A program made the translations under genes and the position numbers. Shown piece after piece: positions 20,497 to 57,210 of a DNA stretch of 64,000 nt. The stretch spans positions 1-64,000 of the forward strand of contig RPFO01001898.1 in assembly GCA_009746045.1 (NCBI GenBank), read 5' to 3'. The notes under the pieces were generated by a model. It made no database searches and was not told the DNA's origin. It saw only the letters and a list, made by a program, of their open reading frames with translations. This DNA is from Mesostigma viride (taxonomy: Eukaryota > Streptophyta > Mesostigmatophyceae > Mesostigmatales > Mesostigmataceae). How positions within the stretch are numbered: the stretch's first letter is position 1; each line of letters opens with the position of its first letter.

Positions 20497-20597
20497 AGGC
20501 TAGGAAGGATGACATCAGCAATGACATCATCACAGAAGCTTGTAGAAACATCCTAGCATATTCCTAGCATATTCCCAGCATATTCTCAGTATATTCC

Positions 20598-20644: not shown

Positions 20645-21086
20645 CATGATCCAATGAGCTGGCATAATAGCTAGATGCCAAGTGTCTACATAATAATGTG
20701 CCACATAACATGATTAATAAAGTGACACATCTCTTCTCCTTGGAGTGACAAGTGTCATACAATGAGTCTACCCACTTGTCATCATGTAAGTCATAACATG
20801 TGTCATCATGAGCTTCCAACATTTGTCAGCTCATGGACCAAACACTTGTTCAATAGGCCATAGCACCACTTGTCAATCAAATACGTGATGCTACTAGGCT
20901 GACTCAGGGTACAAGTCATCCATGTCCAAGAATAGGACTATGGCACATGAATATTGATCAGCTCATTGAGCCCAATCCATCTAGCTCATCATAGCTATCG
21001 AATTCCCAGTCCATAAGTAATAAATCCAACAAGAAATAAATCAGGCTGGGATATATTGTGGCCAGGTGGATATAATATCCCTAACA

Positions 21087-21094
21087 CCCCCCTT
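21087..21094 (-). promoter_or_regulatory. Polypurine tract of nested element
   Basis: AAGGGGGG on the minus strand, directly next to the 3' LTR start (TGTTAGGG). This is where plus-strand cDNA synthesis is primed in LTR elements. A second similar tract (CACCCCCCTTAACCACATG on the plus strand) lies about 55 bp further inside. Confidence 0.75.
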
Positions 21095-22240: not shown

Positions 22241-24331
22241 TTAGGGCAACCTTGAGAAGTGGGGTCTGTGCATCCTGGGCGACAATTTCCAAGGGTCGTT
22301 GCAGCTAGCGCAATTGCAAATGCCATGGCCTGGCCGAACACCGTAAACTGACCGACGTGATACCTTGGCAGCATTTCGCACCTTAGTTGACCGTTGGTGC
22401 TTGACAACACTTTGGCTGACAGGTCGCTGTCCACGTCGTTGTCGGCTCGCTCGAGGCCTCGCGCCAGCACCGGACTTGGCAGTCCAGGACTTGGAAAAAT
22501 TTTGCAGCTTGGTCGATTTCGCCCTCGCGTCACGAATTTGTTCCCCCTCAGTTAGGCTGGCAGCGTTCGAGCGCCGCGCCTTTGGTCTGGTCGCCGGACT
22601 TTGGTTACTAGCACCAGTATCACCTGGTATGCTGGCGGCGACAACGCGCTCCGCCTGCACTGGGCTGTTCTGGACCGCAGTTTCTGGAAGTACTTCAGCG
22701 TCTGACACCGACTTCTCCGTTGCGCTGGAAACTTCTCGAATTGGCGTGAACTCCCACTGGGCCGGCGCAGAGTATATAAAGCCACGCAGTGTGCGAGTAA
22801 TGCCCAGTAGGCCGCCCCCGATCCCGCATACACGGGCAAGCATGGCCAGTATGACCGTTAGGCCCACGGCCAGCCACTCCGCCGCGTGTCCCGAGGCACG
22901 TGAGATGCTGCGCTCGCTGCTCGCCATTTTCTGCCCTTGACAGGCAGCGTCGACGTCCTTGAAGCTCGTCGCCGAAGATTTCAGCTCTGGGATGGCGTCC
23001 ATCGCTGCGTCCGCACCGCGCGCGGGCAAAAAGTAGGCATTGTTCCTCGTCACGATGCTGCAGGGCCTGCTGTCCAGCACAGCAACCCGCCTGGCGAGGT
23101 CGACGTTGTGGCCATCCTTGACGAGCTGGCCGACAGATAAAAGTCGGGTGCTCAGCTTTGGAACGAGCAGCGCGTTTTGGAGGTGCACGTCTGCCTCCTG
23201 GCCCGGCAGCTTCAGCTTGACAGTCCCGATGGCTGTCGCCTTCAGTTTGCCGCCTGAGCCGGCGATTTCCCTGTTGTGAGGGTGCAGGCACACGAAATCC
23301 GACGGGCATGGCGTCATGTGACAGCTCGCTGCAGAATCCAGCACCCAGCTGGTCGGCGCCTTCTTTTCATATTGCGTGAGTGCAGCAGTGTCCGACGGCG
23401 ATGGCGACTCGGCGATGGTGGCGAAGACGAAGCCGGACGGCAGCTCTGCAGCCTCCTGGGTGATGTGCGCCTCGCTGGCACCTGGTGAGTGCCCCTTTCT
23501 CGCCGCTGATGTCGCGTGGTTCCGTCGCGTCGCCTGGTTCTTGCGTTCTTGCTTCAGCTCCGGATGCTTCTCCCAGCACTGGGCCTCCACGTGCCCAAGC
23601 TTCTTGCAGTGATAGCACCGCTTTCCTCCACCTTTCTTGGCAGTAGTGTGGAAAGCCTGGCCGTCCGATGAGCTCTCCTTCTTTGCTTCAGCAGAACGCC
23701 CTCCCATCAGCATGTCCTCCGCTTCCAGCAGCGCAGCCTTGACCTCCTCCAAGTTGTCCTCCTCCTTGAAATGCACCGATATCAGCGCAGGGCGATATTT
23801 GTCTGGCAGGCCGCTCTTGAGAATGGCTGCGAAGTCTTGGTCACTCATGACTCCCCCCACAGCACGGTACTCCGCCAGCAGCAGCAGTCCCCTTAGGATA
23901 TACTGCCCCATGGTCTCCCCTGGCTTCATTTGCAGCCTGTGCAGCTGGACCCTGAGGTCCATCCGGTGGCTCTTGGTGAGCTTTTGCTGCTCGTAGACCT
24001 CCCTCAGCGTCTTGTAGAGCTTGCTGCCAGATTGGTCTGGCACGAGCGATAGGATGCGCCTCGCTTCTCCAACAAGTGCAGCTGAGATAACAAGGCCGAC
24101 AGCCATGTCAGCCTTGGGGTCCTCCTTGGTGCCAAGCAGAACATCCTTAACCCCGTAGAAGCGACAGAAGCCCTCAAGGGATGTCTTGGTCTCCTCCCAG
24201 CCACGTAAACTTGTGCCGTCAAATTTCAGCACCATCTTGGAGCACACATTCAGCATAGGAGTGTAGTCCACCTCGCTTGCCATGGAGCTTGTAACTGGGC
24301 TGGGTTTCTTGGTGGTCTTCTTGGAGCTCAT
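22241..24331 (-). CDS. Gag-protease polyprotein with membrane/basic C-terminal tail, copy 1
   Basis: A 696-residue ORF. The start chosen is the ATG at 24331 (MSSKKTTKK), 8 bp inside from the primer-binding site; the ORF also extends into the LTR. Residues ~20-230 look like the Copia Gag (UBN2-type) domain (LKFDGTSLRGWEE, LHRLQMKPGETMGQYI). A zinc knuckle CYHCKKLGHVEAQC lies near residue 245. A Copia protease has WVLDSAASCHMT near 335, the DSA form of the active site as in some plant Copia elements, and LLSVGQLVKDG. Beyond residue ~460 the usual integrase is absent: a hydrophobic segment (WLAVGLTVILAMLARV) is followed by a basic Ser/Arg-rich tail with HGICNCASC. The ORF is intact and identical in both copies. 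Confidence 0.85.
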   Translation of the reverse strand: MSSKKTTKKPSPVTSSMASEVDYTPMLNVCSKMVLKFDGTSLRGWEETKTSLEGFCRFYGVKDVLLGTKEDPKADMAVGLVISAALVGEARRILSLVPDQSGSKLYKTLREVYEQQKLTKSHRMDLRVQLHRLQMKPGETMGQYILRGLLLLAEYRAVGGVMSDQDFAAILKSGLPDKYRPALISVHFKEEDNLEEVKAALLEAEDMLMGGRSAEAKKESSSDGQAFHTTAKKGGGKRCYHCKKLGHVEAQCWEKHPELKQERKNQATRRNHATSAARKGHSPGASEAHITQEAAELPSGFVFATIAESPSPSDTAALTQYEKKAPTSWVLDSAASCHMTPCPSDFVCLHPHNREIAGSGGKLKATAIGTVKLKLPGQEADVHLQNALLVPKLSTRLLSVGQLVKDGHNVDLARRVAVLDSRPCSIVTRNNAYFLPARGADAAMDAIPELKSSATSFKDVDAACQGQKMASSERSISRASGHAAEWLAVGLTVILAMLARVCGIGGGLLGITRTLRGFIYSAPAQWEFTPIREVSSATEKSVSDAEVLPETAVQNSPVQAERVVAASIPGDTGASNQSPATRPKARRSNAASLTEGEQIRDARAKSTKLQNFSKSWTAKSGAGARPRASRQRRGQRPVSQSVVKHQRSTKVRNAAKVSRRSVYGVRPGHGICNCASCNDPWKLSPRMHRPHFSRLP

Positions 24332-24338
24332 GAACAAT

Positions 24339-24350
24339 CCTCCGATACCA
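24339..24350 (-). promoter_or_regulatory. Primer-binding site (initiator tRNA-Met type)
   Basis: TGGTATCGGAGG on the minus strand directly after the 5' LTR end (TTCCAACA). It differs by one base from TGGTATCAGAG, the sequence complementary to initiator methionine tRNA used by many Copia elements. Confidence 0.8.
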
Positions 24351-25158
24351 TGTTGGAAAAGGTAGAGGAAACTAATGGGTTTTACACAATGCCTTGTGCT
24401 TGGCCTTGCTACCCACACACCTTGCAGGTGCTGAAAGAAAGAGAGGTTGAAGACAATTTACGTGGAAGAATAAATGGCTTTATTAGAATATAATAGTTGG
24501 AGAAGAGCTTGAATGGAGGTTGAATGGAGGTACCTGCCCTTAGGGGGCAGTTTCCTTTTATACCTTTTAGGCTAGGAAGGATGACATCAGCAATGACATC
24601 ATCACAGAAGCTTGTAGAAACATCCTAGCATATTCCTAGCATATTCCCAGCATATTCTCAGTATATTCCAGGAATATTCCTGGCATATTCTTAGAACATT
24701 CCTAGAACGTTCTAGACATGATCCAATGAGCTGGCATAATAGCTAGATGCCAAGTGTCTACATAATAATGTGCCACATAACATGATTAATAAAGTGACAC
24801 ATCTCTTCTCCTTGGAGTGACAAGTGTCATACAATGAGTCTACCCACTTGTCATCATGTAAGTCATAACATGTGTCATCATGAGCTTCCAACATTTGTCA
24901 GCTCATGGACCAAACACTTGTTCAATAGGCCATAGCACCACTTGTCAATCAAATACGTGATGCTACTAGGCTGACTCAGGGTACAAGTCATCCATGTCCA
25001 AGAATAGGACTATGGCACATGAATATTGATCAGCTCATTGAGCCCAATCCATCTAGCTCATCATAGCTATCAAATTCCCAGTCCATAAGTAATAAATCCA
25101 ACAAGAAATAAATCAGGCTGGGATATATTGTGGCCAGGTGGATATAATATCCCTAACC
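24351..25158 (-). repeat. 5' LTR of nested element, copy 1
   Basis: Partner of 20279-21086. It carries the same TATA and HSE-like promoter (HSE near 24670-24716) upstream of the Gag-protease ORF. Its first base in element orientation is G instead of T. Confidence 0.9.
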
Positions 25159-31285: not shown

Positions 31286-31726
31286 CTTGATGTGTTGTCC
31301 CCTGTAAATAGTCAATCACCCCTAGTGGGACGAACAGTTGTACAGAGTAATGGGGGTGTCCCTCTTGTGCAGCAGCAAGGGGTTGGGAATGATGAGGTGC
31401 TTCCACTCAATGATTGCAATAACGCTGCTGCAGCAGTGGAATTCCCTGTGCCTGTGGCAGGTGCAGGGTCTCCAGTTGTTGGGGTTGACTCTGGGAGTCA
31501 AGCCGCCAAACTGGAAGGACCTGCAGCTTCTGTGGGAACCGGGGCTGGCTCTGGGAGCCGAGCTACCTTGGAGGAGGTCCCTGGAGCAAGAGAACAGCAG
31601 GTGGGTCGTGCTATCCCAAGCACACAGTCTTTGTCACGTTCCTCTCTGTGCAGCCAGGCTGACAGGGGGTTGAGCTATGCTCAGGCTGGAAACACTCTAC
31701 ACCATACGTGGTGGCAGCCTGCCTGA
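31286..31726 (+). pseudogene. Copy I-e pol start; integrase core deleted
   Basis: Identical to 18757-19197: open in the Gag frame after UGA, Gly/Ser-rich spacer, truncated integrase zinc-binding region ending LHHT. The shared deletion shows it predates the long duplication. Confidence 0.7.
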
Positions 31727-32807
31727 AGAAGGCAGAGAGGGTGTTCTCCAGGTTGAGGCGTAAGGACAAGGGTTGGAAAATGCTGAGGCCCCAGGTGGGA
31801 CTGAGGGTCAGGATGTGGAAGGAACCGTCATTACCAGGCAAGCGTGGCAAGTGGCAAGATGGGCAGGTAACCCATGTTGAAGAGGCTAACCATTATTGTC
31901 TGGTGGCTTTGGAGAGTAATCCCAAGCACGTGTACAGGCTATCCTGGGCTCACGTCAAGGAGAGAAGGCCAACTGCAATCTGGCCTGAAGACGGCCCTGA
32001 TCCTCCCTTGGAGGGAGATGAGCAGGATGAGAGCCAGGCAGTAGATGCTAACCCGCCATGCTTGGATTATGGTCTGTCCTGGATGGATGAGGGTGAGCAG
32101 GAGTCTGCTGAGACGTCTGTCACAAGGCCACAGGTGGCCAGGGCTGCACCACAGTCCAGGGGGCTGCTGATGGCGGACATCATTCGAGCTCTGCAGAACA
32201 GCAAGCGTGATCCCAAGGTATCTAAGCTCACGGGATGGGGGTCATGTGGGGCACCAGCACTAGAGGTGGATACCAACTCACAGGTGTCCATTCTAAGGGT
32301 AGAGGATGCTGCAGGCTTGCAGTGGTCATCCCCTAGCTGCCTAGCTTTGTCTGATTTCTCTGGGAATGTGTCCATGAAGATCTTGGGAGAAGTGAGTGTG
32401 CCTATCCTGGGGTTGCCCACCACGTTCAGTGTGGTTGAAGGGTATCAGGGGCCTGCCATTCTAGGTCAGAACTTCTTGTGCTTGCCAGGGGTGAGGATAT
32501 CCTCTGCTGAGGAGCTAGCATTAGAGGGGCAGGGCCGCCTTCCCTTGCAGAGATATCGCTACTCCCAGGGTCTTAGTGTGGCTGTAAGGGCTGTGAGGGG
32601 TCTAGAGGCAGAGGGTCCTGATTCAAAGGAGCCCATTGCTGGGGACCTGCTGATCCTCCCTACTACGTTTGACCCACGTGAGTTGGGTGTGCAGAGGTAC
32701 CAGATCCCAGGAACGAGTCCTGTACCTTGGCGCAAGCTAGTGGAGATGATGCAAAGCCCCAAGATGGCTAAGGCATGGACTCTTGGCTTTGTTGCTTCTG
32801 GGCATGA
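31708..32807 (+). pseudogene. Copy I-e integrase C-terminus and retropepsin-like domain
   Basis: Identical in translation to 19179-20278. The integrase SH3-like tail is followed by EVDTNSQVS and ILGQNFL 63 residues apart, then the RT start, interrupted at 32808 by the second copy of the nested LTR element. Confidence 0.75.
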
Positions 32808-35800
32808 TGTTGGAAAAGGTAGAGGAAACTAATGGGTTTTACACAATGCCTTGTGCTTGGCCTTGCTACCCACACACCTTGCAGGTGCTGAAAGAAAGAG
32901 AGGTTGAAGACAATTTACGTGGAAGAATAAATGGCTTTATTAGAATATAATAGTTGGAGAAGAGCTTGAATGGAGGTTGAATGGAGGTACCTGCCCTTAG
33001 GGGGCAGTTTCCTTTTATACCTTTTAGGCTAGGAAGGATGACATCAGCAATGACATCATCACAGAAGCTTGTAGAAACATCCTAGCATATTCCTAGCATA
33101 TTCCCAGCATATTCTCAGTATATTCCAGGAATATTCCTGGCATATTCTTAGAACATTCCTAGAACGTTCTAGACATGATCCAATGAGCTGGCATAATAGC
33201 TAGATGCCAAGTGTCTACATAATAATGTGCCACATAACATGATTAATAAAGTGACACATCTCTTCTCCTTGGAGTGACAAGTGTCATACAATGAGTCTAC
33301 CCACTTGTCATCATGTAAGTCATAACATGTGTCATCATGAGCTTCCAACATTTGTCAGCTCATGGACCAAACACTTGTTCAATAGGCCATAGCACCACTT
33401 GTCAATCAAATACGTGATGCTACTAGGCTGACTCAGGGTACAAGTCATCCATGTCCAAGAATAGGACTATGGCACATGAATATTGATCAGCTCATTGAGC
33501 CCAATCCATCTAGCTCATCATAGCTATCGAATTCCCAGTCCATAAGTAATAAATCCAACAAGAAATAAATCAGGCTGGGATATATTGTGGCCAGGTGGAT
33601 ATAATATCCCTAACACCCCCCTTAGCCACATGGGCACAATGCAAAAGATGTCTGGGTAGGTGGAATCTCAACACCCCCCTTAACCACATGCTCGTAGCAT
33701 GCAGTCCAGTTGCTAGCATGGTGCAACTGAAAATGAAGATGCCGTCCTCGTGAAATACTTGAAGCTCCAACATGCGGTCATGAGCCGCACTACCGCCACT
33801 GATCCGTCCCCCCCGGCAACGCGAATGAGTGTCCTGCCATAGCAGCAACGCACTAGCTGCCCATCAATCCTGGATGGCTGATACCCAACCCTTAGTTGGA
33901 AAAAGTGCTCTAGATGCGACATTCCCCCCTCACTCAAAGCGGCTGCCCATGGACACAATAGGGGCACACAGTCCCACACATATAATACGGCAACACATGC
34001 CAACAAAGAAAGTCCCTATGAGCTAACCCAAACGGTATAGAGGTAGGGCAACGGCAACAATACGTGCTGTACACACACGGAGCAACATAACATACGCCAT
34101 CTCACACAATAAATGACACCAACATCACGTTTTACGCCAAATAAACGGGGTGAGCAAACAAACATATTGGCAACAAATGCCACACAAACAAGGTACAATA
34201 CAACCTTCAACACAAAACACAGTGGCCATAACAGATAAACACGCTTCATAGCAAAGAAAACAGGACGTGCAAGACATTACCGCCACAAAGGCGAACACAG
34301 GTAACGATTACTTCGTCACGATTCACAAATCAGTGCCCGAGAGTAAACATAACGTCCGACATTACAGGCTATGCCGAAATGCACAGCCAAATTCGACACA
34401 AAGGACGTAAGCATTTGCATACAAGCAATGCTCTCAGCACAAAACAAAATAACACACGCGTCACAGGCACTTTAACTTACGAAAACAAGTCGTAGACGAC
34501 GATATAACGGCGCTTCACTACGCCGCAGACTAGTGCCACAAATAGCGTGCAAAAACTCTGGATACACACTCCAGGTACGTAGAAAACGTCTCGTGGGAAC
34601 AATACCAAAATGTGTGGGCCATTGCCACTGAACGCATGGCAAAATAAACACATAATTGCTGGAAGAACACAAAGAAAGAACCAGAAAACGCAGGCTTACG
34701 GCGCCTCACAAGTTCCAGCAAACACGACACAAAAGTCGACATACAAGTTAATTTCCCACAGACAAAACATTAGGGCAACCTTGAGAAGTGGGGTCTGTGC
34801 ATCCTGGGCGACAATTTCCAAGGGTCGTTGCAGCTAGCGCAATTGCAAATGCCATGGCCTGGCCGAACACCGTAAACTGACCGACGTGATACCTTGGCAG
34901 CATTTCGCACCTTAGTTGACCGTTGGTGCTTGACAACACTTTGGCTGACAGGTCGCTGTCCACGTCGTTGTCGGCTCGCTCGAGGCCTCGCGCCAGCACC
35001 GGACTTGGCAGTCCAGGACTTGGAAAAATTTTGCAGCTTGGTCGATTTCGCCCTCGCGTCACGAATTTGTTCCCCCTCAGTTAGGCTGGCAGCGTTCGAG
35101 CGCCGCGCCTTTGGTCTGGTCGCCGGACTTTGGTTACTAGCACCAGTATCACCTGGTATGCTGGCGGCGACAACGCGCTCCGCCTGCACTGGGCTGTTCT
35201 GGACCGCAGTTTCTGGAAGTACTTCAGCGTCTGACACCGACTTCTCCGTTGCGCTGGAAACTTCTCGAATTGGCGTGAACTCCCACTGGGCCGGCGCAGA
35301 GTATATAAAGCCACGCAGTGTGCGAGTAATGCCCAGTAGGCCGCCCCCGATCCCGCATACACGGGCAAGCATGGCCAGTATGACCGTTAGGCCCACGGCC
35401 AGCCACTCCGCCGCGTGTCCCGAGGCACGTGAGATGCTGCGCTCGCTGCTCGCCATTTTCTGCCCTTGACAGGCAGCGTCGACGTCCTTGAAGCTCGTCG
35501 CCGAAGATTTCAGCTCTGGGATGGCGTCCATCGCTGCGTCCGCACCGCGCGCGGGCAAAAAGTAGGCATTGTTCCTCGTCACGATGCTGCAGGGCCTGCT
35601 GTCCAGCACAGCAACCCGCCTGGCGAGGTCGACGTTGTGGCCATCCTTGACGAGCTGGCCGACAGATAAAAGTCGGGTGCTCAGCTTTGGAACGAGCAGC
35701 GCGTTTTGGAGGTGCACGTCTGCCTCCTGGCCCGGCAGCTTCAGCTTGACAGTCCCGATGGCTGTCGCCTTCAGTTTGCCGCCTGAGCCGGCGATTTCCC

Positions 35801-37687
35801 TGTTGTGAGGGTGCAGGCACACGAAATCCGACGGGCATGGCGTCATGTGACAGCTCGCTGCAGAATCCAGCACCCAGCTGGTCGGCGCCTTCTTTTCATA
35901 TTGCGTGAGTGCAGCAGTGTCCGACGGCGATGGCGACTCGGCGATGGTGGCGAAGACGAAGCCGGACGGCAGCTCTGCAGCCTCCTGGGTGATGTGCGCC
36001 TCGCTGGCACCTGGTGAGTGCCCCTTTCTCGCCGCTGATGTCGCGTGGTTCCGTCGCGTCGCCTGGTTCTTGCGTTCTTGCTTCAGCTCCGGATGCTTCT
36101 CCCAGCACTGGGCCTCCACGTGCCCAAGCTTCTTGCAGTGATAGCACCGCTTTCCTCCACCTTTCTTGGCAGTAGTGTGGAAAGCCTGGCCGTCCGATGA
36201 GCTCTCCTTCTTTGCTTCAGCAGAACGCCCTCCCATCAGCATGTCCTCCGCTTCCAGCAGCGCAGCCTTGACCTCCTCCAAGTTGTCCTCCTCCTTGAAA
36301 TGCACCGATATCAGCGCAGGGCGATATTTGTCTGGCAGGCCGCTCTTGAGAATGGCTGCGAAGTCTTGGTCACTCATGACTCCCCCCACAGCACGGTACT
36401 CCGCCAGCAGCAGCAGTCCCCTTAGGATATACTGCCCCATGGTCTCCCCTGGCTTCATTTGCAGCCTGTGCAGCTGGACCCTGAGGTCCATCCGGTGGCT
36501 CTTGGTGAGCTTTTGCTGCTCGTAGACCTCCCTCAGCGTCTTGTAGAGCTTGCTGCCAGATTGGTCTGGCACGAGCGATAGGATGCGCCTCGCTTCTCCA
36601 ACAAGTGCAGCTGAGATAACAAGGCCGACAGCCATGTCAGCCTTGGGGTCCTCCTTGGTGCCAAGCAGAACATCCTTAACCCCGTAGAAGCGACAGAAGC
36701 CCTCAAGGGATGTCTTGGTCTCCTCCCAGCCACGTAAACTTGTGCCGTCAAATTTCAGCACCATCTTGGAGCACACATTCAGCATAGGAGTGTAGTCCAC
36801 CTCGCTTGCCATGGAGCTTGTAACTGGGCTGGGTTTCTTGGTGGTCTTCTTGGAGCTCATGAACAATCCTCCGATACCATGTTGGAAAAGGTAGAGGAAA
36901 CTAATGGGTTTTACACAATGCCTTGTGCTTGGCCTTGCTACCCACACACCTTGCAGGTGCTGAAAGAAAGAGAGGTTGAAGACAATTTACGTGGAAGAAT
37001 AAATGGCTTTATTAGAATATAATAGTTGGAGAAGAGCTTGAATGGAGGTTGAATGGAGGTACCTGCCCTTAGGGGGCAGTTTCCTTTTATACCTTTTAGG
37101 CTAGGAAGGATGACATCAGCAATGACATCATCACAGAAGCTTGTAGAAACATCCTAGCATATTCCTAGCATATTCCCAGCATATTCTCAGTATATTCCAG
37201 GAATATTCCTGGCATATTCTTAGAACATTCCTAGAACGTTCTAGACATGATCCAATGAGCTGGCATAATAGCTAGATGCCAAGTGTCTACATAATAATGT
37301 GCCACATAACATGATTAATAAAGTGACACATCTCTTCTCCTTGGAGTGACAAGTGTCATACAATGAGTCTACCCACTTGTCATCATGTAAGTCATAACAT
37401 GTGTCATCATGAGCTTCCAACATTTGTCAGCTCATGGACCAAACACTTGTTCAATAGGCCATAGCACCACTTGTCAATCAAATACGTGATGCTACTAGGC
37501 TGACTCAGGGTACAAGTCATCCATGTCCAAGAATAGGACTATGGCACATGAATATTGATCAGCTCATTGAGCCCAATCCATCTAGCTCATCATAGCTATC
37601 AAATTCCCAGTCCATAAGTAATAAATCCAACAAGAAATAAATCAGGCTGGGATATATTGTGGCCAGGTGGATATAATATCCCTAACC
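32808..37687 (-). mobile_element. Nested Gag-protease LTR element, copy 2
   Basis: Duplicate of 20279-25158, with LTRs at 32808-33615 and 36880-37687, PBS at 36868-36879 and PPT at 33616-33623. HSE-like clusters lie near 33127-33173 and 37199-37245. It sits at the identical position in pol, so it arose by duplication of the whole region and not by a second insertion. Confidence 0.9.
34770..36860 (-). CDS. Gag-protease polyprotein with membrane/basic tail, copy 2
   Basis: Same 696-residue product as 22241-24331: Gag, zinc knuckle CYHCKKLGHVEAQC, protease WVLDSAASCHMT, hydrophobic segment and basic tail. Start ATG at 36860. No difference found in the compared translation. Confidence 0.85.
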   Translation of the reverse strand: MSSKKTTKKPSPVTSSMASEVDYTPMLNVCSKMVLKFDGTSLRGWEETKTSLEGFCRFYGVKDVLLGTKEDPKADMAVGLVISAALVGEARRILSLVPDQSGSKLYKTLREVYEQQKLTKSHRMDLRVQLHRLQMKPGETMGQYILRGLLLLAEYRAVGGVMSDQDFAAILKSGLPDKYRPALISVHFKEEDNLEEVKAALLEAEDMLMGGRSAEAKKESSSDGQAFHTTAKKGGGKRCYHCKKLGHVEAQCWEKHPELKQERKNQATRRNHATSAARKGHSPGASEAHITQEAAELPSGFVFATIAESPSPSDTAALTQYEKKAPTSWVLDSAASCHMTPCPSDFVCLHPHNREIAGSGGKLKATAIGTVKLKLPGQEADVHLQNALLVPKLSTRLLSVGQLVKDGHNVDLARRVAVLDSRPCSIVTRNNAYFLPARGADAAMDAIPELKSSATSFKDVDAACQGQKMASSERSISRASGHAAEWLAVGLTVILAMLARVCGIGGGLLGITRTLRGFIYSAPAQWEFTPIREVSSATEKSVSDAEVLPETAVQNSPVQAERVVAASIPGDTGASNQSPATRPKARRSNAASLTEGEQIRDARAKSTKLQNFSKSWTAKSGAGARPRASRQRRGQRPVSQSVVKHQRSTKVRNAAKVSRRSVYGVRPGHGICNCASCNDPWKLSPRMHRPHFSRLP

Positions 37688-46746: not shown

Positions 46747-48194
46747 CTTGAGCCTGCACACATCCCTGAACCCTGGAGGGTGCCCCCAGGGGTGTGTAAT
46801 GTAGCTGCTAGTGACGGCAGTGAGGGGCAGCCCCATGCTCTAGTGATAGAGCCCATTGGACACGATGGGGCAAGCTTGGTTACCACAGAGAGTATGCCAG
46901 CTGTAGCTGCAGTGGTTACTCGCCAACGTGCCCGCCATGGCGGTGCTGAGCCTGAGGTAGGACCTGGTGCTGTGGACCCAGGTGGATCTCAGAAGCATTC
47001 TGACCGTGCAGGACTGGCACAGGATGGTCAGGATGAGGATAGGGCTGGAGACAGTCTGACAGGCACGACCCTGGTGCCTCCTGTACATAAGGGATCTGTA
47101 CATACCTTGAGTGCTTATAATGACAATAAAAGATTTTCTCTATTGTATGACATTGCCTCAAGGTTGCATACCATGTTTGGCCATGCAGCTCAGTCTTTGC
47201 AGGTTGCTAGACGGCTGGGAGGAAGTGAGTTGTACTCCATTTGCCAACAGGTTGCTCAAGCTTGCAGGTGCAGGCCAGTTGCTAGAAAGCCCAAGCAGTC
47301 TCATGCCAGGTCTCCTATTTTGCAGCCAGGCCATGTGCAGGTGGATATTCAGAGAATCAGGGGTTTGAAGCAGCCTGCTGGTGGCAGTGGACAGATATAC
47401 CAAGTACAAGACCCTAGAGATCCTGCCTGATATGGAGAAACCTACGTTGATTGCTGCTCTGAAGTTGACAAGGAGCAGGTACCCTGGGTTGGAGTTGCTG
47501 CAGTGTGACATTCAGTTTGAGTGCTGTGAGAACCTGCCAGAGTTTCCAGAGTTGCTGATTACACCCAGGGAGAGCCACGGCCAGCAAGGGGTGGTGGAGA
47601 GAGCCATCCAAGAGATCAAGACTGTGCTGCTGGTGGAGAGGATACCCAGGACGTCATCTGCCATTGTGACATCTGCATGGCTACGTTCTGTGGAGGACAG
47701 CTGGCTGAACCTAAGGACTCCCATGTTCTTTGGTGACATTGCCATCAATCCTCTTATGCTGCATACCAGGATGCTGCACTCAGCTGACGCTGAGCAGGCA
47801 TGGAAGGAGAAGCTAGAGGCCAAGTTCCTCAAGCTGATCGAGGCAGAAAGACAAGGGCTGGAGTGTCCTAGAACCTAACGTTGGACGACAGGTTGTTGTG
47901 TGGAAGGAGCCAAGCTTTCCAGGGAAACGTGGCAGCTGGCATGATGGGGTGGTGACCCAAGTAGAAGCCGCTGGCCATAAGTGCTGGGTGGCCATTGATG
48001 GCTCCCAGGCAGTGCACCGTCTGTCCTGGTCAAAGATCCGTCCCCGGGGAGGTAATCAAGGAGACCTCTTCCAGGTGCCCGCTGGTGTACAAGGCGGGGG
48101 TGACGTGGAACTTCCTGATCAGGGTGCTACAGCTGTATCGAGCCCTCAGGGTGACCCTGGCCCGGCCCCTGGGGTACCTTCACATACGGTGGTT
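46747..48194 (+). pseudogene. Copy I-f integrase
   Basis: In frame with Gag after UGA: spacer, then the zinc-binding start LHTMFGHAAQ near 47165 and VQVDIQRIRG. A frameshift near 47375 leads to the core (AVDRYTKYKTLE), CDIQF (D codon 47507) and GVVERAIQE (E codon 47597), again 29 residues apart. Another frameshift near 47880 leads to the C-terminal part (VVWKEPSFPGKRG, VHRLSW). The frame runs to GTT at 48192-48194, where the 9-kb DNA transposon is inserted. Confidence 0.8.
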
Positions 48195-48219
48195 CCCTAA
48201 GCACAACTGGAATTGTACT
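48195..48219 (+). repeat. Left terminal inverted repeat of 9-kb transposon
   Basis: It reads CCCTAAGCACAACTGG and continues AATTGTACT. Its reverse complement is 57183-57207 without mismatch. A second TACAATTTGA block near 48230 also recurs inverted near 57163. Confidence 0.92.
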
Positions 48220-48315
48220 CCACCACTAGTACAATTTGACTTTTTTTCAACTTTGTTATTTTGTACCTCCCTTAGGTCCAAAGCTAGGAGGTAAGTGTCT
48301 CATCATGTTTTGACA

Positions 48316-48656
48316 CCGTTGCACCGGCACACCGTTGCACCGGCACACCGTGCCACCATAAAACTACCATTTTATGATTTTGTATGGTGTCACGAGGTAA
48401 CCTAACGTCCAATACTAATGTTATAATGTCCACAAGCACTGCCTAAAGTGGGGTGCCACTGTGCCACCGTGCCACCGTGCCACCATAAAACTACCATTTT
48501 ATGATTTTGTATGGTGTGACGAGGTAACATAACGTCCAATACTAATGTTATATTGCCCACAAGCACTGCCCAACGTGGGGTGCCACTGTGCCACCGTGCC
48601 ACCGTGCCACCGTGCCACCGTGCCACCGTGCCACCGTGCCACCGTGCCACCGTGAC
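48316..48656 (+). repeat. Left subterminal GTGCCACC arrays
   Basis: Tandem 8-bp repeats GTGCCACC and variants GTTGCACC and GGCACACC. They are embedded in a larger ~127-bp tandem unit (CCACCATAAAACTACC at about 48353 and 48480). The last run (48580-48652) holds about nine perfect 8-mers. Such subterminal repeats are usually transposase-binding sites. Confidence 0.85.
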
Positions 48657-49155
48657 ATGTCTTGACACATCATTTTTTGACTTTTCCTACGCAAGTAATG
48701 CAAGCACATGGAAAAATAAAATATTGATGATTACTTGAGACAACTATTAATTGATTATCAGCATTGTCTCCAATGTCCCCTACATGTAACACATGGAGAA
48801 GCAAGTACTACGTGATCGCAACCACAATTCCTTTGTTCGCCAACTATAATACATCACAGCATAAAAAAGCTGAATAAATGGCTGAAAACTGACAAAGAGG
48901 TGCAAACACGATCAATATGAACATGAACCATAATAAACTGGTTCCCCTCGCTCATTTGCATCTTGCGAGTACGGCTGATGCCTTTTTCCGCGATGGAGGG
49001 GCGGTGGGCGGTGGGCGAGGGGCGCTGCGAGCACGCATGCGTTCATCATCAAAGTTGCTGACAGTGAGTCGTGAGACGAGTATGCTGAGTTGCTGCATAA
49101 TGTCCCTCAGCATAATGTGGCCTATCTGGCTCCCTCATGGCGGCATAACGGTAAG
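48657..49155. other. Transposon left interior without gene
   Basis: About 500 bp between the 8-bp arrays and MITE copy 3. Only short unrecognised ORFs. The GGTAAG at its right end is part of a repeat flanking the MITE. Confidence 0.5.
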
Positions 49156-49357
49156 TTACGTTAAATAGTGCCGGAACCTTTTGCCCACTGAGGCAAATCG
49201 GTCCGTCACACTATTTTGCCCGGAATAACCACTTCCGAGCACCCAAGTTAATTCGGCCGAATTAACTTGGGTGCTCGGAAGTGGTTATTCTGGGCAAAAT
49301 AGTGTGACGGACCGATTTGCCTCAGTGGGCAAAAGGTTCCGGCACTATTTAACGTAA
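49156..49357. repeat. Palindromic foldback MITE, copy 3, inside the 9-kb transposon
   Basis: Near-perfect palindrome centred near 49257 with ends TTACGTTAAATAG and CTATTTAACGTAA. CGGTAAG directly precedes it (49149-49155) and recurs at 49360-49366, a probable target duplication. It supplies the last ~29 residues and the stop codon of the minus-strand gene. Confidence 0.9.
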
Positions 49358-51742
49358 CTCGGTAAGCGCCCTGCAAGGGCTCACCGTGGGCCATATAATA
49401 GGAGTCATAAGGCTCGTACAGGCCATGCGATTCATCTTGCCAATCCAGCTTCCTTGCCCCATCGATCGCGGGTGCGCGCGTGCGCGGCTCTGGCTCATCT
49501 TGCCAATTCAGCTTCCTTGCCCCATCGATCGCGGGTGCGCGCTTGCGCGGCTCTGGCTCACGGCGTGCCGGCTGCCATTCTGCCCCCTGCGTGCCGGTGA
49601 AGCCTTCACGTTGCCGCAATGTGGGAGGCGCAGCAGGAATGGTCGGCCGGTGAAACTCCGTGCCGCGGCTTGAGGTTGGAGCACATTCAACAGGCGTGCA
49701 TGGCACTCGTTCCCTTTCCAAAGCATCAACCCTCTCCGTCAGGGATTTGACTTGTTCCTTCAGCTTCGCAGTCGCGGGGTTATCTGGGGCGGCAGCCGGC
49801 TTTGCACGCGCTGCCAATGATGATTGGCACTTGGAAACCTTTGCATTCAAATCAGCGATCTGCATAGCCACAGACGGCGGCGCCTTCTTCCTCCCTTGCT
49901 TCGCTTGAAACCCCACCCACGGTCCTTCAGCTCTGCGATTGCTGCCTGTGCTGCTTGCAACCCCTGAGTAAGGGGCGCTATGTAGCCACCCTGCCGGGGG
50001 AGCTGCTGGCATCGCACTCTCGGACGGTGCTGACTTTGCTGCGCGAGGCGGCAGTGCCTTCCCGCCCTGGTATTCAAGCTGGCGTGCAGGGCGCAAGCTC
50101 CGCTGCCCCCCCCCCCCCCGCCGCCTTCGAGACGCGCTTCCTGGCCTTGACGGGTGATGTTTGTTCCTCGCTGCCATCGTCACCCCCCCCTTCCCCACCA
50201 TTGTGCTCCTCCTCCACCTCCTCTTCATCGTCCAGGTCATAGCTGGCATCGCCCCCGCTTTCATCTTCATCTTCATCTTCATCAGATGGAGCAGGCGGGA
50301 CGACAGCGAGCACCTGAATTGTAAACATGCACGCATACAGAGATTGACATTTTACGTCAACAATACTTGGAAATTAATGTTTTATGGTGCTTACAAATAG
50401 AGTGCTCCTGATGGTGTCTTCTAGTATGCACATTGATCATATGCGCCAGTGTGGTTTGCGCTCGGCTGCGGTTGGATTGCGCATGGCATGTTCTAGCATA
50501 TGAATGTCAACAATGCAAAACCGATCTGAGATACTTACTTGATAGCCCTGCCCGGTGGTCTTGTTGGTCGCGCTCTTTAACTGGTTGATGCGCGACTCCT
50601 GGCGGGTAAACACTGACGTGATGTCCGCCATGGCATCCGCCAAGGTAGTACTCGAATTGCAATGTAATTCGGCGGTGGCGGCAGGGTCAACCGTCAAGTT
50701 ATATGGTCGGCACCACGCTACACGGATTTCACCGGAGGCGAATGAGGTAACCTTCCATTCTCCTTCCTCGCAGCTGTAAATGGGACGCACCATCGCCACA
50801 AAGGACTGGTACTCATGGCCAATGCTGGCTGCCCTCACACAAGCGAGTCCGAGGATGACAAGCCGCACAGCGGTGTTGCCCGTGGGAGTGGCACGCAGGT
50901 CACGCATTAGGTCAGCATCCGCATGACCGCAGATGTCACCGATGGAGAACGACGTCACCTTGGCGGTGCTACGAGAGCTAGCCTTTTTGCACGAAACATA
51001 CAGCGGAGGCCAGTCACTCTTGGTGTCTAGTTGGGCCAGGGAATCCTTTTCCTCAGGCAGCGTGTAGAACTTGTGAGCTCGTGTGATGTTGTGCTCTGGA
51101 ACGGTTATCTGAGGAATACCGTTGATGAACCGGCTGCTGTGGGTTGGAAAACCCTTGCCCACGTCAAGCATGTGAAGCACAACTGGCTTGGCCGCAGTAG
51201 CACCCCGGGATGCAATCGAGAGGCTGCCGGCTCCCTTCACGAGCACCCCCAAATATCCCAGATACTTGACGAGGCACTTGTGCGGAACTGGGTCCTGCGA
51301 TGGTGCCTGTTGCAATTCAAGAGCAATAGCACAAGCAATGTCATGATTCCAAACGCCAAGAACTGCACTTATTGTAATATTCCTTTGGTAAAATGCCATT
51401 CAAGAGCAATAGCACAAGCAATGTCATGATTCCAAACGCCAAGAACTTCACTTATTGTAATACACCTTTGGTAAAATAACAGCCGGATTTCCCCTGTCAT
51501 AAATTTACCTCAGATTTCCCAGTTGCACGGTCGGCTTCATCATCCGAAGCACCAGAGGCAAGTATTCTCTCAAGTTCCTTCACTGCGCCCCTGTGATACA
51601 CGGTCGCTTGCATTTTCTTCCTTTCTTCATCATCTACACCTATCACGGATACAAGGCCTGTATCCTTTGTCTGGTTCTCTTGCCCCGGTGGTGCAGGGCC
51701 GGGATCCATTGTGTCTGGTGGGGCTACTGCGTCCTTTTCCAT
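49248..51742 (-). CDS. Transposon accessory gene: three-exon coiled-coil protein, frame-damaged
   Basis: Exons deduced: 51742-51509, 51306-50539 and 50313-49248. Donors are GAG|GTAAAT and CAA|GTAAGT; acceptors are GCAACAG and AATTCAG; all junctions are phase 0. Exon 1 encodes a Pro-rich leader shared with the opposite arm. Exon 2 (256 residues) resembles no family I know. Exon 3 starts with an Asp/Glu-rich stretch (APSDEDEDEDESGG). It then needs frame changes at a 14-C run (50106-50119) and at other homopolymers to reach a coiled-coil segment (LKEQVKSLTERVDALERE) and a 21-residue tandem repeat (PAIDGARKLNWQD). The end lies in MITE copy 3. It may be the element's second, DNA-binding protein. 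Confidence 0.6.
49439..49564 (-). repeat. 63-bp tandem duplication in accessory gene
   Basis: Two 63-bp units (49439-49501 and 49502-49564) encode the repeat RAPAIDGARKLxWQDEPEPR on the minus strand. The length is a multiple of three, so the frame is kept. Confidence 0.85.
51315..51480 (-). repeat. 83-bp tandem duplication in intron 1 of accessory gene
   Basis: ATTCAAGAGCAATAGCAC starts at 51315 and again at 51398. The units differ at a few positions only. It duplicates the pyrimidine-rich stretch before the intron 1 acceptor, so intron 1 has a second branch/tract copy. Confidence 0.85.
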
Positions 51743-52360
51743 CGCTGGTGCTTTCCGATATCCCCTACATGTAAAGACCAAATGGTGGTGGCACGGAGTA
51801 CAAAATTAATGGTGGTGGCACGCCGCCATTGTTGTTGTTGTGTCCCACGCCGCACACCGGTGGAGTACAATTTGGTGGTGGCACGGTGTGCCGGTGGCAC
51901 GGTGTGCCGGTGCAACGGTGCAACGGTGCAACGGCCAGTGATTGGCCCGTTGCTGATTTTCTGATATGCAGCCTAGTAAAAATTGGCCGCAAATCTTGTG
52001 CCCACGTGCGACCGGACGAATTTGCGGCCAATTTTTATTAGGCTGCATGTCAGCAAATCAGCAACGGGCCAATCACTGGCCGTTGCACCGTTGCACCGTT
52101 GCACCGGCACACCGTTGCACCGGCACACCGTGCCACCACCAAATTGTACTCCAGAATGCCCGATGGTCTTTACATGTAGGGGATAATGAACCAGCGATGG
52201 AAGCGATGGAAGCACCAGCGATGGAAAGGGACGCAGTAGCCCCACCGGACACAATGGATCCCGGCCCTGCACCACCGGGGCAAGAGAACCTGACCATGGA
52301 TACAGGCTCTGTATCCGTGACAGGTGTAGATGATGAAAAAAAAAGAAGCAAGCGACCGTA
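51600..52360. repeat. Giant inverted repeat at the centre of the 9-kb transposon
   Basis: Arms extend outward from a 25-nt loop (51995-52019). The inner stem is GGCCGCAAAT/ATTTGCGGCC; then come 8-bp arrays (51880-51925 and 52080-52135), the TACATGTAGGGGAT block, and coding DNA for the same leader peptide (AVAPPDTMDPGPAPPGQEN) on both sides. The inner ~140 bp are almost perfect; the outer coding parts are more diverged. It serves as the shared 5' region of the two divergent genes. Confidence 0.88.
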
Positions 52361-52388
52361 TAATATTACGCAGTTCCTAAAGCCATGA
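52191..52388 (+). CDS. Leader-peptide ORF in the right palindrome arm
   Basis: About 65 codons from ATG near 52197 encode MEAPAMERDAVAPPD, then GPAPPGQEN and a Lys/Arg-rich end (KKRSKRPYNITQ). It ends with TGA at 52386-52388, directly upstream of and in the same frame as the DUF7869-like ORF. It mirrors exon 1 of the minus-strand gene. It could be a separate peptide, a leader joined by a small intron, or a nonsense-mutated N-terminus. Confidence 0.45.
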   Translation, partial: PAMEAMEAPAMERDAVAPPDTMDPGPAPPGQENLTMDTGSVSVTGVDDEKKRSKRPYNITQFLKP

Positions 52389-52397
52389 AGGGCCTGC

Positions 52398-55300
52398 ATG
52401 GGCATTATGGAGCCCGATGCGGGGGCGCAGGTTTTTGGAATGCTATTCTCGCTGCTTGTCCTGGTGGTCGTGTTGCTCGTCATGGCGAGACGAGGGCTCC
52501 GTCTTAGCGCTGCCGCCGTCTTAGCGAAATGCACCACGGATGCGTCCTGTGCTGCGGCACTTAGCAGGGACTGGGACTGTGGGTGTGGCCGCCATTGTTT
52601 GCGAAGCGTGCATTTCGAGGAGATAAGAGCGATGAGGGCAGACTTTTGGTCCAAGCCGAAGCAGGCGGATCGGAAACATTTGATATCGAACCAGCTTTAC
52701 CAAGCGGGTCAGAAAGAAGATGAAATTCCGGGGAGCTTGCGTCACAAACGCAGTCGAGACGAGGGCTTCCTTTTCGCAGTGGATGGCTACGTTACTTACC
52801 CAGCTGACAGGCATCAGCCAGAGTCGGCAACCCCGTTTCGGCATCGCATGTGTGAAGCCGCTTGCCGCCGTGCTTTGTATATCAACCCCAATATGTGGCA
52901 CACGGCTGTCAAGGAGACAACCCGCCCTCGACCTTTGCCTGGCGATCGTGATTTGGAGTCCGGCTTGGGTAGCACTGCTGGACGGCGCATTGGGGTATCC
53001 CGGTCATTGTCTGCCAAGATTGGGGAGGCCAAGGCGCTTTGTGAGCTGTGGATTCAGCGTTGGTTCTGCCCAGCAGTTGAGAAGGATCCCCGGGATGGCG
53101 CCAGCATCATTGAGCAACCGTGCAAGAAGACTTTATACTCGGACTACACTGCAGAGCAGCAGGACTACGGAACACCTGTAGTTAGCATTTCGCTTTTCAG
53201 GACAATTTTTAAAGCAGTGAGAGTAAGCATGCGAGTCCGGATTGAGAAATATCGCACGAAAATTATGGGTGAGTGCTCCCGCTGCCGGAAGTTAAAGGAT
53301 GCCATCTTGTCTTATCGGACCACTGACCGGGCCCGGTGGGAGGCTTTCAAAGAGAAGTTAGCTGATCACACCGACTTCTTTAATGGGGAACGGATGGCTT
53401 ACCTGCAACGAAGGTTTGAGGGCGCCAAGCACTATTTTGTTTCCATAGTCATTGATGGTCTGGCGAAAATGAAGACGGCGGTTCCAACCAGGGGCAGCGC
53501 CACGAAAGAGTGGCTTAGCAGCCGCAAGCTACATATACCCTACCAGCTGGTTTGCTCGATTTTGCACGGAGTGAGGACGTACTTCTGGGTGATTATGCCT
53601 TGGGTAGCCAATTCTGAGGTTTCTGGTAATTCAGGGCGTGTCACTGCGACGCTGCTCACACACCAATTGTTGGAAGTGGTGGTTGAGCGACCATGGGAAA
53701 GGTCCCGCAATCCTGAGATCCGCGAGTTTGGCCTTGCCACGACACTCGTCCTTCAAGTGGACGGGGGTGGGGACAACATGAATAGCGAGCTATTGGGCTT
53801 TCTAGCGGTTCTCATTAACCGCCGTCTCTTTTCTCTCATCAGGGTGTGCCGCCTGCCCCCGGGGCACACCCATAATGACGCTGATCAGAGATTTGGTTGG
53901 TTTATCCGGTGGTACAACGGGATGAAGAACCGCGTGTCAGATCTCGCACTGGTGCTCATGCTGACATTTCAAGATGTGTTGCAAGGGCTGACGCGTGCCT
54001 TTGCACACTTCTACGAGCAAGGCCCATCCGGGAGCATGGCGACAATAAACCCACTGCCGCCATCTGCCAAGGTTGGTTTTCTTTAAAATACTATGAATTT
54101 CTTCGGGGTTCTTCTTCTTTTCCATATGTAGCATGCCAATCTCGCCTCTGTGATTTATCATTCTCTGAGAATATATAGCCATACATTCTATATATATTTA
54201 TATGTATTTATATGGTACATGATTGTATATATATTGAGCGTAAGACAGCGGAGTTTTTCCACGAGTGCTGCCAGCGCCGTGAAGACCGCCTCGACCTCGA
54301 GGGTCAGACCGCCCCGTGGTCGGCCCGCACGTGGTCCTCGTATTGGCGGCAGCGCCTGTCACTCGCCCTCACTCGCACCGTGGCTGATGTGTTATTCCGC
54401 CGCACCCGGGCCGACTTTGTCGCGACCCATGCGGTCTAGATCCTTTCCAGGCCTGCATGGTGGGCCGGCAGCGCTGTTGCTGCGTGTAGTTTTGTGCTGT
54501 ATAGTTAGTTGTACCTTGTGCAGCTGGCGTGATCCTTGGATGTCTGTGTCAGATTGCTATTAATTTCTTCAGGGTTATTCTCCCAGTTATCGGGTTTTTC
54601 CTTATGTTGCATGCCTATCTCACCTCCGTAATCTATCATTCTCAATGAATATATATTGAGCGTGTTTGTAGGTGGGGGCTTTGTCATTTAGCATGCCATA
54701 GTTAACCAATAATCACCTTGCTTACTCGCCTCTTATTGCAACTGTTTGTTCTATGCTTGTTGCTTGCAGCTCGTCAATGCAGCGCTGGACTTCACAACGT
54801 GGCTTCGAGGCTGCATGGACCCAGATCTTGGGCGTTGGGTCAAGTCTGCTGACGTGGTTATGGACGCGTCAACCAACCAACCTGTGGTGGAGCATCGGCT
54901 GGTCAGCAAGATATTTGATATCGAGCTATTCGGCCATCACGATGAAGGTGCAGGGGCGGACGTTGGTGATGACTGCTTTTTGCGCTACCGACTTGCCACG
55001 GCAGAGGCGTTAGCTGATGTGCCCGCCAACTGTTGGAGGCCTCTTGGGCCGAACGAGGAGCCATGCGACATGGTTACTGTCTCTTCGAAGCGTGTGAGTG
55101 ATGGCAAAGAGCTCCGCGGCGTGCTAGTCATGGAGGCGACCAAGGCGCCCAAGGGCAGCCCAGGTGTTGCCGCGTTTGCGGATTGGGATGGCGATCGCGC
55201 AATCCGCCGTCATTGCTCTAAACTCAACCGAGTGTTTCCAGACATCATGACGGATGCAAAGCAAGCAGAGCTCAACGAGGAGATCCGCGGCTTCCCCGCT

Positions 55301-56440
55301 GAGCCGGAGCAAGTGGAAGAAGAAGCGTCGGTGTTTGACCGCATGATCCAAGCTCTGACGGAGTGCAGGGAGCAGCAAAAAAACAAGCCCCTCCCTTTTT
55401 GCCTCCACAGTGCAGGGGATCAGGCGGTGATGCGGGCTGCCCGTGCTTTGGAAGCGCCGCTGCACCCAATTATCAGCCATGCAGGCAACCGCCGGCACGA
55501 GGTGCAAACTGCCATTCACCGGGCGCGACGCGAGGCTGAGCGCCTGCCGGCCGCATCTGCCACGCCTGCCACGCTTGCCTCCAATCCTCCTACTGGAGTT
55601 GCCTCCAATTCTCCTGCGGATGCCACCGGTGGTGCACGGACCATTGCGACTGCGGATCATATTTTTTCCGTAAATCCCGGCATTATCTCCCGCGGAGACT
55701 TTCTCATCATCAAGAGACCTGCGGTGACGTGCGGGGAAGGCATGCCCTGGCCAGAGGAGCTCTTGGTGAAGGTCATGGATGCGTCTACTGTTCGTTCACG
55801 CGGGACTCTGACTGTTTCCATGTTTTACTCACCCTCCTGGAAAGGGCAGTTTAACAAGCTCTCGCTCGCAGGCGGTGGGCCGGGCCTGACGGTGTCGGCA
55901 TCGGAAATCATCGTTCAACACTGGACAGTTGGTGCATCAGGGCAGGCTGTCCACACTCCGTCGCTGACAGCAGCACGTAAGCTATCTCGTGCAACCCTCC
56001 AGGCCTTAGATGACCATCCACACGTGCACTTTGCTGGTTTTCAAACGCAGCAAGCTGCTGCAGCGACGTCAAAAGCTGCATGTGCGGCACACTTTGTTGA
56101 GCACGGGCTGCGCGCGCTGAAAGGGAGAAGGCTGTGCGCCTTGTGGGGTGCTGCCAAGACCCGTTTTCACGGGTGGGTCGCAGAAGTACATGAGAATGGC
56201 GGGGCTTTGAAGATCGAGACGGTTTGGTCCGACGGCAAGGGAGCGACGTACACCACGTTGGAGGAAGTCTTAAAGTTCATCTGCGGGTGCCCTCATGCGG
56301 CTAATGCCTTTGGCCGCGAAAAGTTTTTTCAGGATGGTGCCGCGGCCGACGCTGAGACGGGGGCGGAAGAGCCCCAACTTTCTTTTGTTTGTGAGAGTAG
56401 CGAGAGTAGCGGTGATGAGGAGGAGGAAGCATGGGAATGA
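52398..56440 (+). CDS. DUF7869-like putative transposase, two exons
   Basis: Exon 1 is 52398-54071 (558 codons); exon 2 is 54770-56440. The intron has donor CAAG|GTTGG and acceptor TTGCTTGCAG, phase 0, giving about 1,114 residues. A hydrophobic stretch (LFSLLVLVVVLLVMA, residues ~16-30) is followed by Cys-rich CTTDASC and CGCGRHCLRS, then a second Cys pair (RMCEAACRRALY). The core has IVIDGLAKMKT (Asp353), LQVDGGGDN (Asp455) and PPGHTHNDADQRFG (Asp494/Asp496). By my memory of the family, these motifs and ECSRCRKLKD are diagnostic for DUF7869-type proteins; an RNase H-like catalytic triad is my inference. After the intron, LDFTTWL continues the family pattern. The C-terminal part resembles the family tail; function unknown. 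Confidence 0.75.
54072..54769 (+). other. 698-bp intron with duplicated flanks and a coding-like insert
   Basis: Two direct repeats about 85-100 bp long (54090-54240 region and 54560-54665) share AATTTCTTC, CTATCATTCTC and ATATATTGAGCGT. Between them an open stretch (54235-54437) reads EFFHECCQRREDRLDLEGQ. It has no good splice sites and ends in TAG, so it is not called an exon. An (AT)n tract lies near 54178-54232. Confidence 0.6.
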
Positions 56441-56732
56441 TGGGGAATGTGTGAAAGCTTCGATAGGAGTAAAGGCGTCTCTTTGTCCTGTCAAGCATGC
56501 TAGTCTTGTTGCAAGAATGAAGCCCAACATGCCAACTGTCCATGCATGGTCATGTTGCATAATGGTGGGCATAAGATACACGTGTTTGCTAGTGGCCATG
56601 TTTTACACGGAAATGGATTTACGTTCAGTATGTGATTCAATGACATGTGATTATTTTGGTTGATGCATGCAATATACCCCATGATAACCAATGCACGTGC
56701 AAAGATGTGTGTTTATATGCAATTTTTGAGTT
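56441..56732. other. 3' region of DUF7869-like gene
   Basis: Non-coding between the gene stop and the right subterminal arrays. Only short ORFs overlapping the end of the gene were seen. Confidence 0.5.
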
Positions 56733-57086
56733 GGCACGGTGGCACGGTGGCACGGTGGCACGGTGGCACGATGCCACGGTGCAACGGTGTCATGAGCATG
56801 TCTAGGTAACCCTTGCATGACCCATTACCCTTGATAAATCCCAATGGATAACCATTGTATGTGCAAATATGTGTGTTTATATGCAACTTTTGAGGTGGCA
56901 CGGTGGCACGGTGGCACGGTGGCACGATGCCACGGTGCCACGGTGTCATGAGCATCTAGGTAACCCTTGCATGACCCATCCACCTACATAAAACCCATGG
57001 ATAACAATTGCATGTGCAAAGGTGTGTGTTTATATGCAATTGAGGTGCAACGGTGGCACGGTGGCACGGTGGCACGGTGGCACGGC
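56733..57086 (-). repeat. Right subterminal GGTGGCAC arrays
   Basis: Three clusters of the 8-mer GGTGGCAC (reverse complement of the left array) lie near 56735-56770, 56892-56925 and 57050-57085. They sit in ~155-165-bp tandem units containing GTGTTTATATGCAA and CTAGGTAACCCTTGCATG. The orientation is opposite to the left arrays, so the pair forms long imperfect subterminal inverted repeats. Confidence 0.88.
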
Positions 57087-57182
57087 CGCCGACGAACTTT
57101 TTTTTCCTCAAAGACTTTAGTTGAAACTTTCAATGCATGAAAATGCAACTTTCAAAACTGAAGTACAATTTGAATAATGTAT

Positions 57183-57207
57183 AGTACAATTCCAGTTGTG
57201 CTTAGGG
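57183..57207 (-). repeat. Right terminal inverted repeat of 9-kb transposon
   Basis: Reverse complement of 48195-48219 with no mismatch; followed by GTT (57208-57210), the duplicated target. Confidence 0.92.
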
Positions 57208-57210
57208 GTT

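Follow-up and report, generated by a model that had tools for sequence, protein, structure and literature searches.

A 9-kb terminal inverted repeat transposon of Mesostigma viride whose DUF7869 gene very probably encodes its transposase

Transposons of the CACTA/EnSpm group are large and have a divergent two-gene layout and subterminal arrays, features they share with the element described here. Section 3.1 of PMC12730594 describes 3-bp duplications for EnSpm and motifs shared by CMCT proteins, and PMC10045372, in its parts on these groups, gives eukaryotic Zator as resembling ISAzo13, with 3-bp duplications in both, and reports duplications of 3 or 4 bp for Academ (AcademX). PMC6947507, on a published Mesostigma viride assembly, and PMC7027972 cover repeats in general terms in the parts consulted. 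The window analyzed here, the first 64,000 nucleotides of contig RPFO01001898.1 of this streptophyte (assembly GCA_009746045.1), holds at positions 48195-57207 a 9-kb element whose plus-strand gene encodes a member of DUF7869, a Pfam family with no assigned function. An earlier note, made by a model from the letters of this stretch, had called it a complete DNA transposon of an apparently undescribed type. The second half of that description agrees with the open-access literature, in which no paper with DUF7869, PF25273 or IPR057191 was found (the last identifier may be wrong); a named entry in Repbase or Dfam may exist.

The first half was confirmed: the element has perfect 25-bp inverted ends (CCCTA...TAGGG), a GTT target site duplication (TSD), opposed arrays of 8-bp repeats and two divergent spliced genes (Table 1; splice sites were read from the sequence). 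The array word TGCCACCG has 11 plus-strand occurrences, 10 of which lie between element positions 268 and 451; its complement CGGTGGCA has 12, of which 11 lie between 8543 and 8881. The chance expectation for both words combined is 0.62 on average and 4 at most (200 runs of an order-1 Markov model, the one chance model used for the arrays). The insertion target was a Copia-like element. When the flanks were joined by script without the insertion, they were colinear with the paralogous Copia-like open reading frames (ORFs) at 19134-20303 and 31663-32832, with an amino acid identity of ~56% up to the junction and 36% beyond it, the two sides lying in different frames; the insertion thus looks clean.

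Further copies were sought in the assembly of the window (2243 contigs, 439,911,974 bases). A search with the element's first 300 bases gave 96 matches at E <= 0.001, of which at least 40, the window's included, start at the terminus; this is a lower bound, as 40 of 305 candidates were scored. The earlier note had held that the lack of any second copy with these ends would speak against the element, an objection that falls because other copies with the same ends exist. Twenty left-end loci were taken from the 39 others listed, and in four of them both ends could be read, each with a 3-bp duplication: L017 (6552 bp, TSD CAA), L028 (7279 bp, TAT), L016 (10,111 bp, TCC) and L021 (9739 bp, CTT), the right ends of the last two being found after extension. 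The element shows three features of a class II terminal inverted repeat (TIR) transposon, namely TIRs, a TSD of fixed length in several copies, and a multicopy distribution with non-autonomous derivatives.

Two further families in the same genome have the same anatomy. In the first, the DUF7869 exon is 61% identical to that of the window element, and its two copies (copy 1 of 10,886 bp) have perfect 25-bp ends and a TTT duplication, at different sites. In the second, the DUF7869 exon is 45% identical, and the two copies are 99.8-100% identical to each other; comparing them located the left end at CCCTACCAGCCATTTAGAATGTACTCC, and the ends start CCCTACCAGCC. Copy C2 of this family has a right end that is the inverse of the left one and a TSD of TAT, and the right side of copy C1 consists of N. 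All three copies of these families that were read to both ends have a 3-bp TSD, and the exon-1 frames are open in copies of both. The divergent two-gene layout is common to the window element and both families, with counterparts of plus-strand exon 2 (59% and 41% identity, respectively) and of the minus-strand gene (36%, E 5e-38, and 26%, E 8e-18). Our main argument for the DUF7869 protein as the transposase is this coupling of gene, ends and duplication in three families. The element is very probably a cut-and-paste class II TIR transposon of Mesostigma viride with the plus-strand DUF7869 protein as its transposase. The pairing of an open frame with CCCTA ends and 3-bp TSDs, independently in two deeply diverged families, also supports the earlier suggestion that DUF7869, or part of it, is a transposase lineage; part of the family probably consists of transposases.

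The same comparison bears on the possibility that the element is non-autonomous or composite and is moved by another transposase, with the DUF7869 gene as a passenger or accessory. A membrane-like N-terminal helix, an RNase H-like fold that is unconfirmed in a low-confidence model, and the abundance of further DUF7869 families, whose open frames differ greatly in length, would all fit such an arrangement. It is nevertheless most improbable in our judgment, given that three families at 45-61% identity carry the DUF7869 gene between CCCTA ends and 3-bp TSDs, that the sole other gene found conserved is less so (26-36% versus 45-61%) and, as far as its ORFs were scanned, resembles no transposase family of Pfam, and that the acidic residues D353, D455, D494 and D496 are invariant.

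The DUF7869 assignment, which the earlier note had made, was borne out by PF25273, which scored above its curated cut-off in each of the nine proteins of alignment A1, among them that of the window, and also in two further DUF7869 families. These two (L051 and L030, from the same genome and 26-27% identical to the window protein) could be aligned over the core, giving an alignment of 11 sequences with identities down to 26%; it represents about five lineages, since six sequences lie within 20% of the window's. All four acidic residues that had been singled out as candidates are invariant in 11 of 11, as are C293, C296 and H324 upstream and a GHTH motif. Between D353 and D455 lie 101 residues, and between D455 and D496 lie 40. 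Among subfamilies 81-86% identical, ratios of nonsynonymous to synonymous substitution rates (dN/dS) were 0.29 (window-L031), 0.21 (window-L032) and 0.19 (L031-L032), with synonymous divergence saturated beyond these pairs; the three values show that the DUF7869 exon has been under purifying selection as the subfamilies diverged. Outside the genome, a phmmer search of exon 1 against 5.8 billion proteins gave no match at E <= 0.001 (best 8000 word-sharing candidates scored), the core region gave none at E <= 10 among 351 candidates from the same proteins, viral contigs yielded no relatives by protein, TIR pattern or alignment, and the PDB gave no match by sequence or by profile.

Compared with the described groups, the window element misses at least one tested feature each of CACTA/EnSpm, Zator/ISAzo13, Harbinger and Academ. 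It could in principle belong to CACTA/EnSpm (CMCT) as a divergent member whose ends have changed, as it resembles that group in size, in its two divergent genes and in its subterminal arrays. Its 3-bp TSD agrees as well, such TSDs being described for EnSpm (PMC12730594, section 3.1). The ends of all three families read CCC..GGG in contrast to CAC..GTG, residues 455-530 of the window protein contain no CxxC, no Pfam family is shared with CMCT, and Pfam returns DUF7869 and no known transposase family, all of which makes this placement very unlikely. The TSD is also like that of Academ, whereas the window ORFs scanned gave no Pfam match to an XPG nuclease or helicase. For PIF/Harbinger, no transposase-domain or Myb/SANT Pfam match was found in the scanned ORFs of either gene.

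Related sequences were sought in the genome with the window protein (P0001) and with PF25273. P0001 gave 81 genome matches, 78 of 936 candidates having been scored; identities of 97-98, 86, 81, 73, 61, 59 and 45% occur among them, and at least 14 exon-1 frames, the window's included, are uninterrupted over residues 1-558 at 96-100% identity. Among the four relatives read to both ends, L017 and L028 match neither gene (tblastn, E 1e-5) and retain part of the element centre, and L016 and L021 keep exon-1 residues 1-50 and 1-162 only by the same search; each of the four thus resembles a derivative that is mobilized in trans. PF25273 itself has at least 150 genome matches (150 of 275 candidates scored), including many-copy families, and the matches displayed all lie above the cut-off. 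Two of these additional families are only 26-27% identical to the window protein, and in L030, of the family with a 753-residue ORF, a boundary was sought and not found. As separate observations, residues 189-537 of the transposase, an internal part of the exon, recur at 87% and with equal score in 23 places, e.g., C887:4624749-4625795, and this piece is apparently a highly amplified deletion derivative, and more many-copy DUF7869 families lie at C1215:4877252, C2:5582844 and C1:13655750, with many open frames of ~750 to >1700 residues.

Several observations weigh against a DUF7869 transposase, and they concern the copies, the fold and the N-terminus of the protein. Regarding the copies, none of the four window-element relatives read to both ends has a whole transposase gene, and the both-end readings cover none of the other 13 copies in which exon 1 is uninterrupted. 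The right end was not found within the fetched stretch in 16 of 20 left-end loci, nor in L014 and L027 after extension to 13.3-13.8 kb; L027 still matched element position 8484 where its stretch stopped, and L018 and L022 run into contig ends. Young copies show little constraint, as dN/dS of close copies against the window is 0.45-0.85 in seven comparisons. These close-copy values are uninformative, with 3.07 for L014-L027 (one synonymous change) and an undefined ratio for L014-L022.

Regarding the fold, a remote relation that in itself points to transposases came from the ISAzo13 transposase model of NCBIfam, which matched P0001 (E 0.13), L031 (E 0.24) and L032 (E 0.075), all weakly, at 10.4-12.1 bits versus a cut-off of 200 and over the region of D455 and the PPG motif; it gave no match in the other four of seven DUF7869 proteins scanned (L033, L035, L051, L030). 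Against an alignment of 48 ISAzo13-type proteins (from 80 loci listed of 118 stretches), hhalign gave a probability of 11% (P 0.0026), and of 23% for the core alone (P 0.0009), placing DGGGDN over DCGGSN and PPGHT over PPGTS, so that D455 and the PPG motif are in register. DQRF over EHRxF would come next in line, as aligned by eye with a one-residue gap. The score of 33.5 exceeds the highest value from 120 column shuffles (30.4), and no shuffle reached the real score in either test; the reversed template gave P 0.04 in the first test and 0.02 for the core alone, and the controls consist of these reversed templates and the shuffles, which are mild, with no unrelated real families among them. 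The aligned stretch of 59 columns ends short of D494/D496 at a probability of only 11-23%.

These comparisons provide a lead toward ISAzo13/Zator, not membership. A distant place within Zator, the eukaryotic group related to ISAzo13, would agree with the 3-bp TSDs given as typical of both in PMC10045372 and with the weak match of the profile in the region of D455 and the PPG motif. The low scores in three of seven proteins and a similarity that stops before the third acid speak against it, and the window element is far larger, has a second gene and would have D, not E, as its third acid; we consider Zator membership rather unlikely.

The structure prediction, also to be weighed against the transposase assignment, is of low confidence. 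AlphaFold2 with the 11-sequence alignment gave a mean predicted local distance difference test (pLDDT) of 53.7 and a predicted template modeling score (pTM) of 0.30, with 26-54 per block over residues 341-510, and a single-sequence model was useless (pLDDT 39.3). In the low-confidence model, D353 comes just after a strand, D455 at a strand end and D496 just before a helix, an order of elements that would suit an RNase H-like fold in a model too weak to count as evidence. Of the 496 matches that Foldseek returned for this model in the PDB at E <= 10, not one reached E <= 0.001; the top rows were not transposases, and the integrases at ranks 23, 27 and 36 of the 50 shown have E >1 and are not evidence.

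Regarding the N-terminus, the predicted membrane helix (Table 1) is unexpected in a transposase. All five subfamilies tested have a hydrophobic N-terminal segment (best 19-residue Kyte-Doolittle mean 2.54-3.05) in the same order, with a short stretch, the hydrophobic segment and then a charge of +2 to +4 in the next 15 residues, and no other segment of the window's exon 1 exceeds 1.6 on this scale. The conservation of the helix down to 45% identity speaks for real coding sequence. The positive-inside rule would place the catalytic part on the side of the cytosol or nucleoplasm. The family profile searched against 5.8 billion proteins (best 8000 candidates) had as its sole match the Mesostigma viride gene model Mv22949-RA.1 (P0003), of which the ~118 first residues, helix included, are identical by eye to the L031 N-terminus and are followed by a PF01923 (cobalamin adenosyltransferase) domain. 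This model is possibly an exon capture, a host-gene fusion or an annotation error.

If the DUF7869 protein is the transposase, D353, D455 and D496 (or D494) would form the metal site of three aspartates (DDD) in an RNase H-like core, and the protein would cleave at the CCCTA ends and insert these at target positions separated by 3 bp. The minus-strand gene product, with its acidic stretch and coiled-coil-like region, may, together with the plus-strand protein's C-terminal half, aid recognition of the subterminal arrays or of chromatin, and gene-less copies would be mobilized in trans. The N-terminal helix suggests membrane anchoring of the protein, or of a precursor of it, in such a way that the catalytic part is exposed to the cytosol or nucleus. 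It is possible, though doubtful, that DUF7869 represents a new eukaryotic DDD transposase superfamily, remotely akin to ISAzo13/Zator, and that in the present lineage its transposase carries an N-terminal membrane anchor, with attachment (e.g., to the nuclear envelope) acting in mobility or its control.

These results tie DUF7869, a domain without an assigned function, to complete transposons in three families. A single genome can carry at least 150 DUF7869 matches, and ends are tied to the gene for three families only. If the same is true elsewhere, genes annotated with DUF7869 alone should be regarded as parts of transposons, and a new cut-and-paste group with 3-bp duplications becomes recognizable. 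For a transposase to begin with a conserved membrane-like helix would be a new kind of control.

Table 1 Positions of the features of the DUF7869 element in the 64,000-nucleotide window
Feature	Position	Strand	Remarks
TSD, left copy	48192..48194	.	GTT, 3 bp; direct flank of left TIR
Left TIR	48195..48219	+	25 bp; perfect inverted pair with 57183-57207
Left subterminal array	48319..48656	+	8-bp repeats of TGCCACCG type
Nested palindrome	49154..49359	.	206 bp; 103-bp arms, 99% complementary; in 3' part of minus-strand gene
Minus-strand gene, exon 3 onward	49250..50313	-	End approximate; acidic stretch, then coiled-coil-like region; counterpart exons in two families
Minus-strand gene, exon 2	50539..51306	-	Counterparts in two other families, 36% and 26% identical
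Minus-strand gene, exon 1	51509..51742	-	Contains ATG; GT..AG junction
Central inverted duplication	51622..52341	.	Holds 5' ends of both genes and palindrome 51861-52153
Plus-strand gene (putative transposase), exon 1	52407..54071	+	GT..AG junction; ATG 52407 common to aligned copies
Predicted N-terminal membrane helix	52431..52487	+	VFGMLFSLLVLVVVLLVMA; 19-residue Kyte-Doolittle mean 3.05
D353	53454..53456	+	Candidate first catalytic residue; invariant 11/11
DUF7869 core, residues 445-502	53730..53903	+	PF25273, E 4.3e-11, 43.2 bits, cut-off 26
D455	53760-53762	+	In DUF7869 core; invariant 11/11
D494	53877-53879	+	In DUF7869 core; invariant 11/11
D496	53883-53885	+	In DUF7869 core; invariant 11/11
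Plus-strand gene, intron	54072..54769	+	GT..AG, phase 0
Plus-strand gene, exon 2	54770..56440	+	C-terminal half; joins exon 1 in phase 0
Right subterminal array	56737..57082	-	CGGTGGCA; opposed to left array
Right TIR	57183..57207	-	25 bp; inverted partner of left TIR
TSD, right copy	57208..57210	.	GTT, 3 bp; direct flank of right TIR

The plus-strand gene had earlier been placed at 52398-56440. The gene stands and its start does not, as the ATG at 52398 is confined to the window copy, where it is preceded by a 4-bp insertion found in none of the eight other aligned copies, and the ATG at 52407 is present in the window and in all eight; other copies have an in-frame ATG 18 bases further upstream. 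Exon 2 of this gene gave no Pfam match. The idea that an ORF at 52167-52388 extends the N-terminus was rejected, the region being variable among the nine aligned copies and a stop preceding the shared ATG.

The minus-strand gene has at least three exons with GT..AG junctions, and past the third junction a stop falls at residue 413 near a long C run. This run, at 50102-50123, has a change of reading frame close by (~50108) and may represent an assembly error or a decayed frame. The central inverted duplication gives the two genes similar 5' ends and is likely a bidirectional promoter. The nested palindrome is near-perfect and spacerless, with CGGTAA near either side, and a similar palindromic sequence lies near the window start, at 65-500, which suggests that the two are members of a dispersed fold-back element. 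In the retroelement-rich part of the window, long ORFs at 19134-24457 and 31663-36986 have apparently identical translations and lie 12,529 bases apart, a repeat that suggests a large duplication there.

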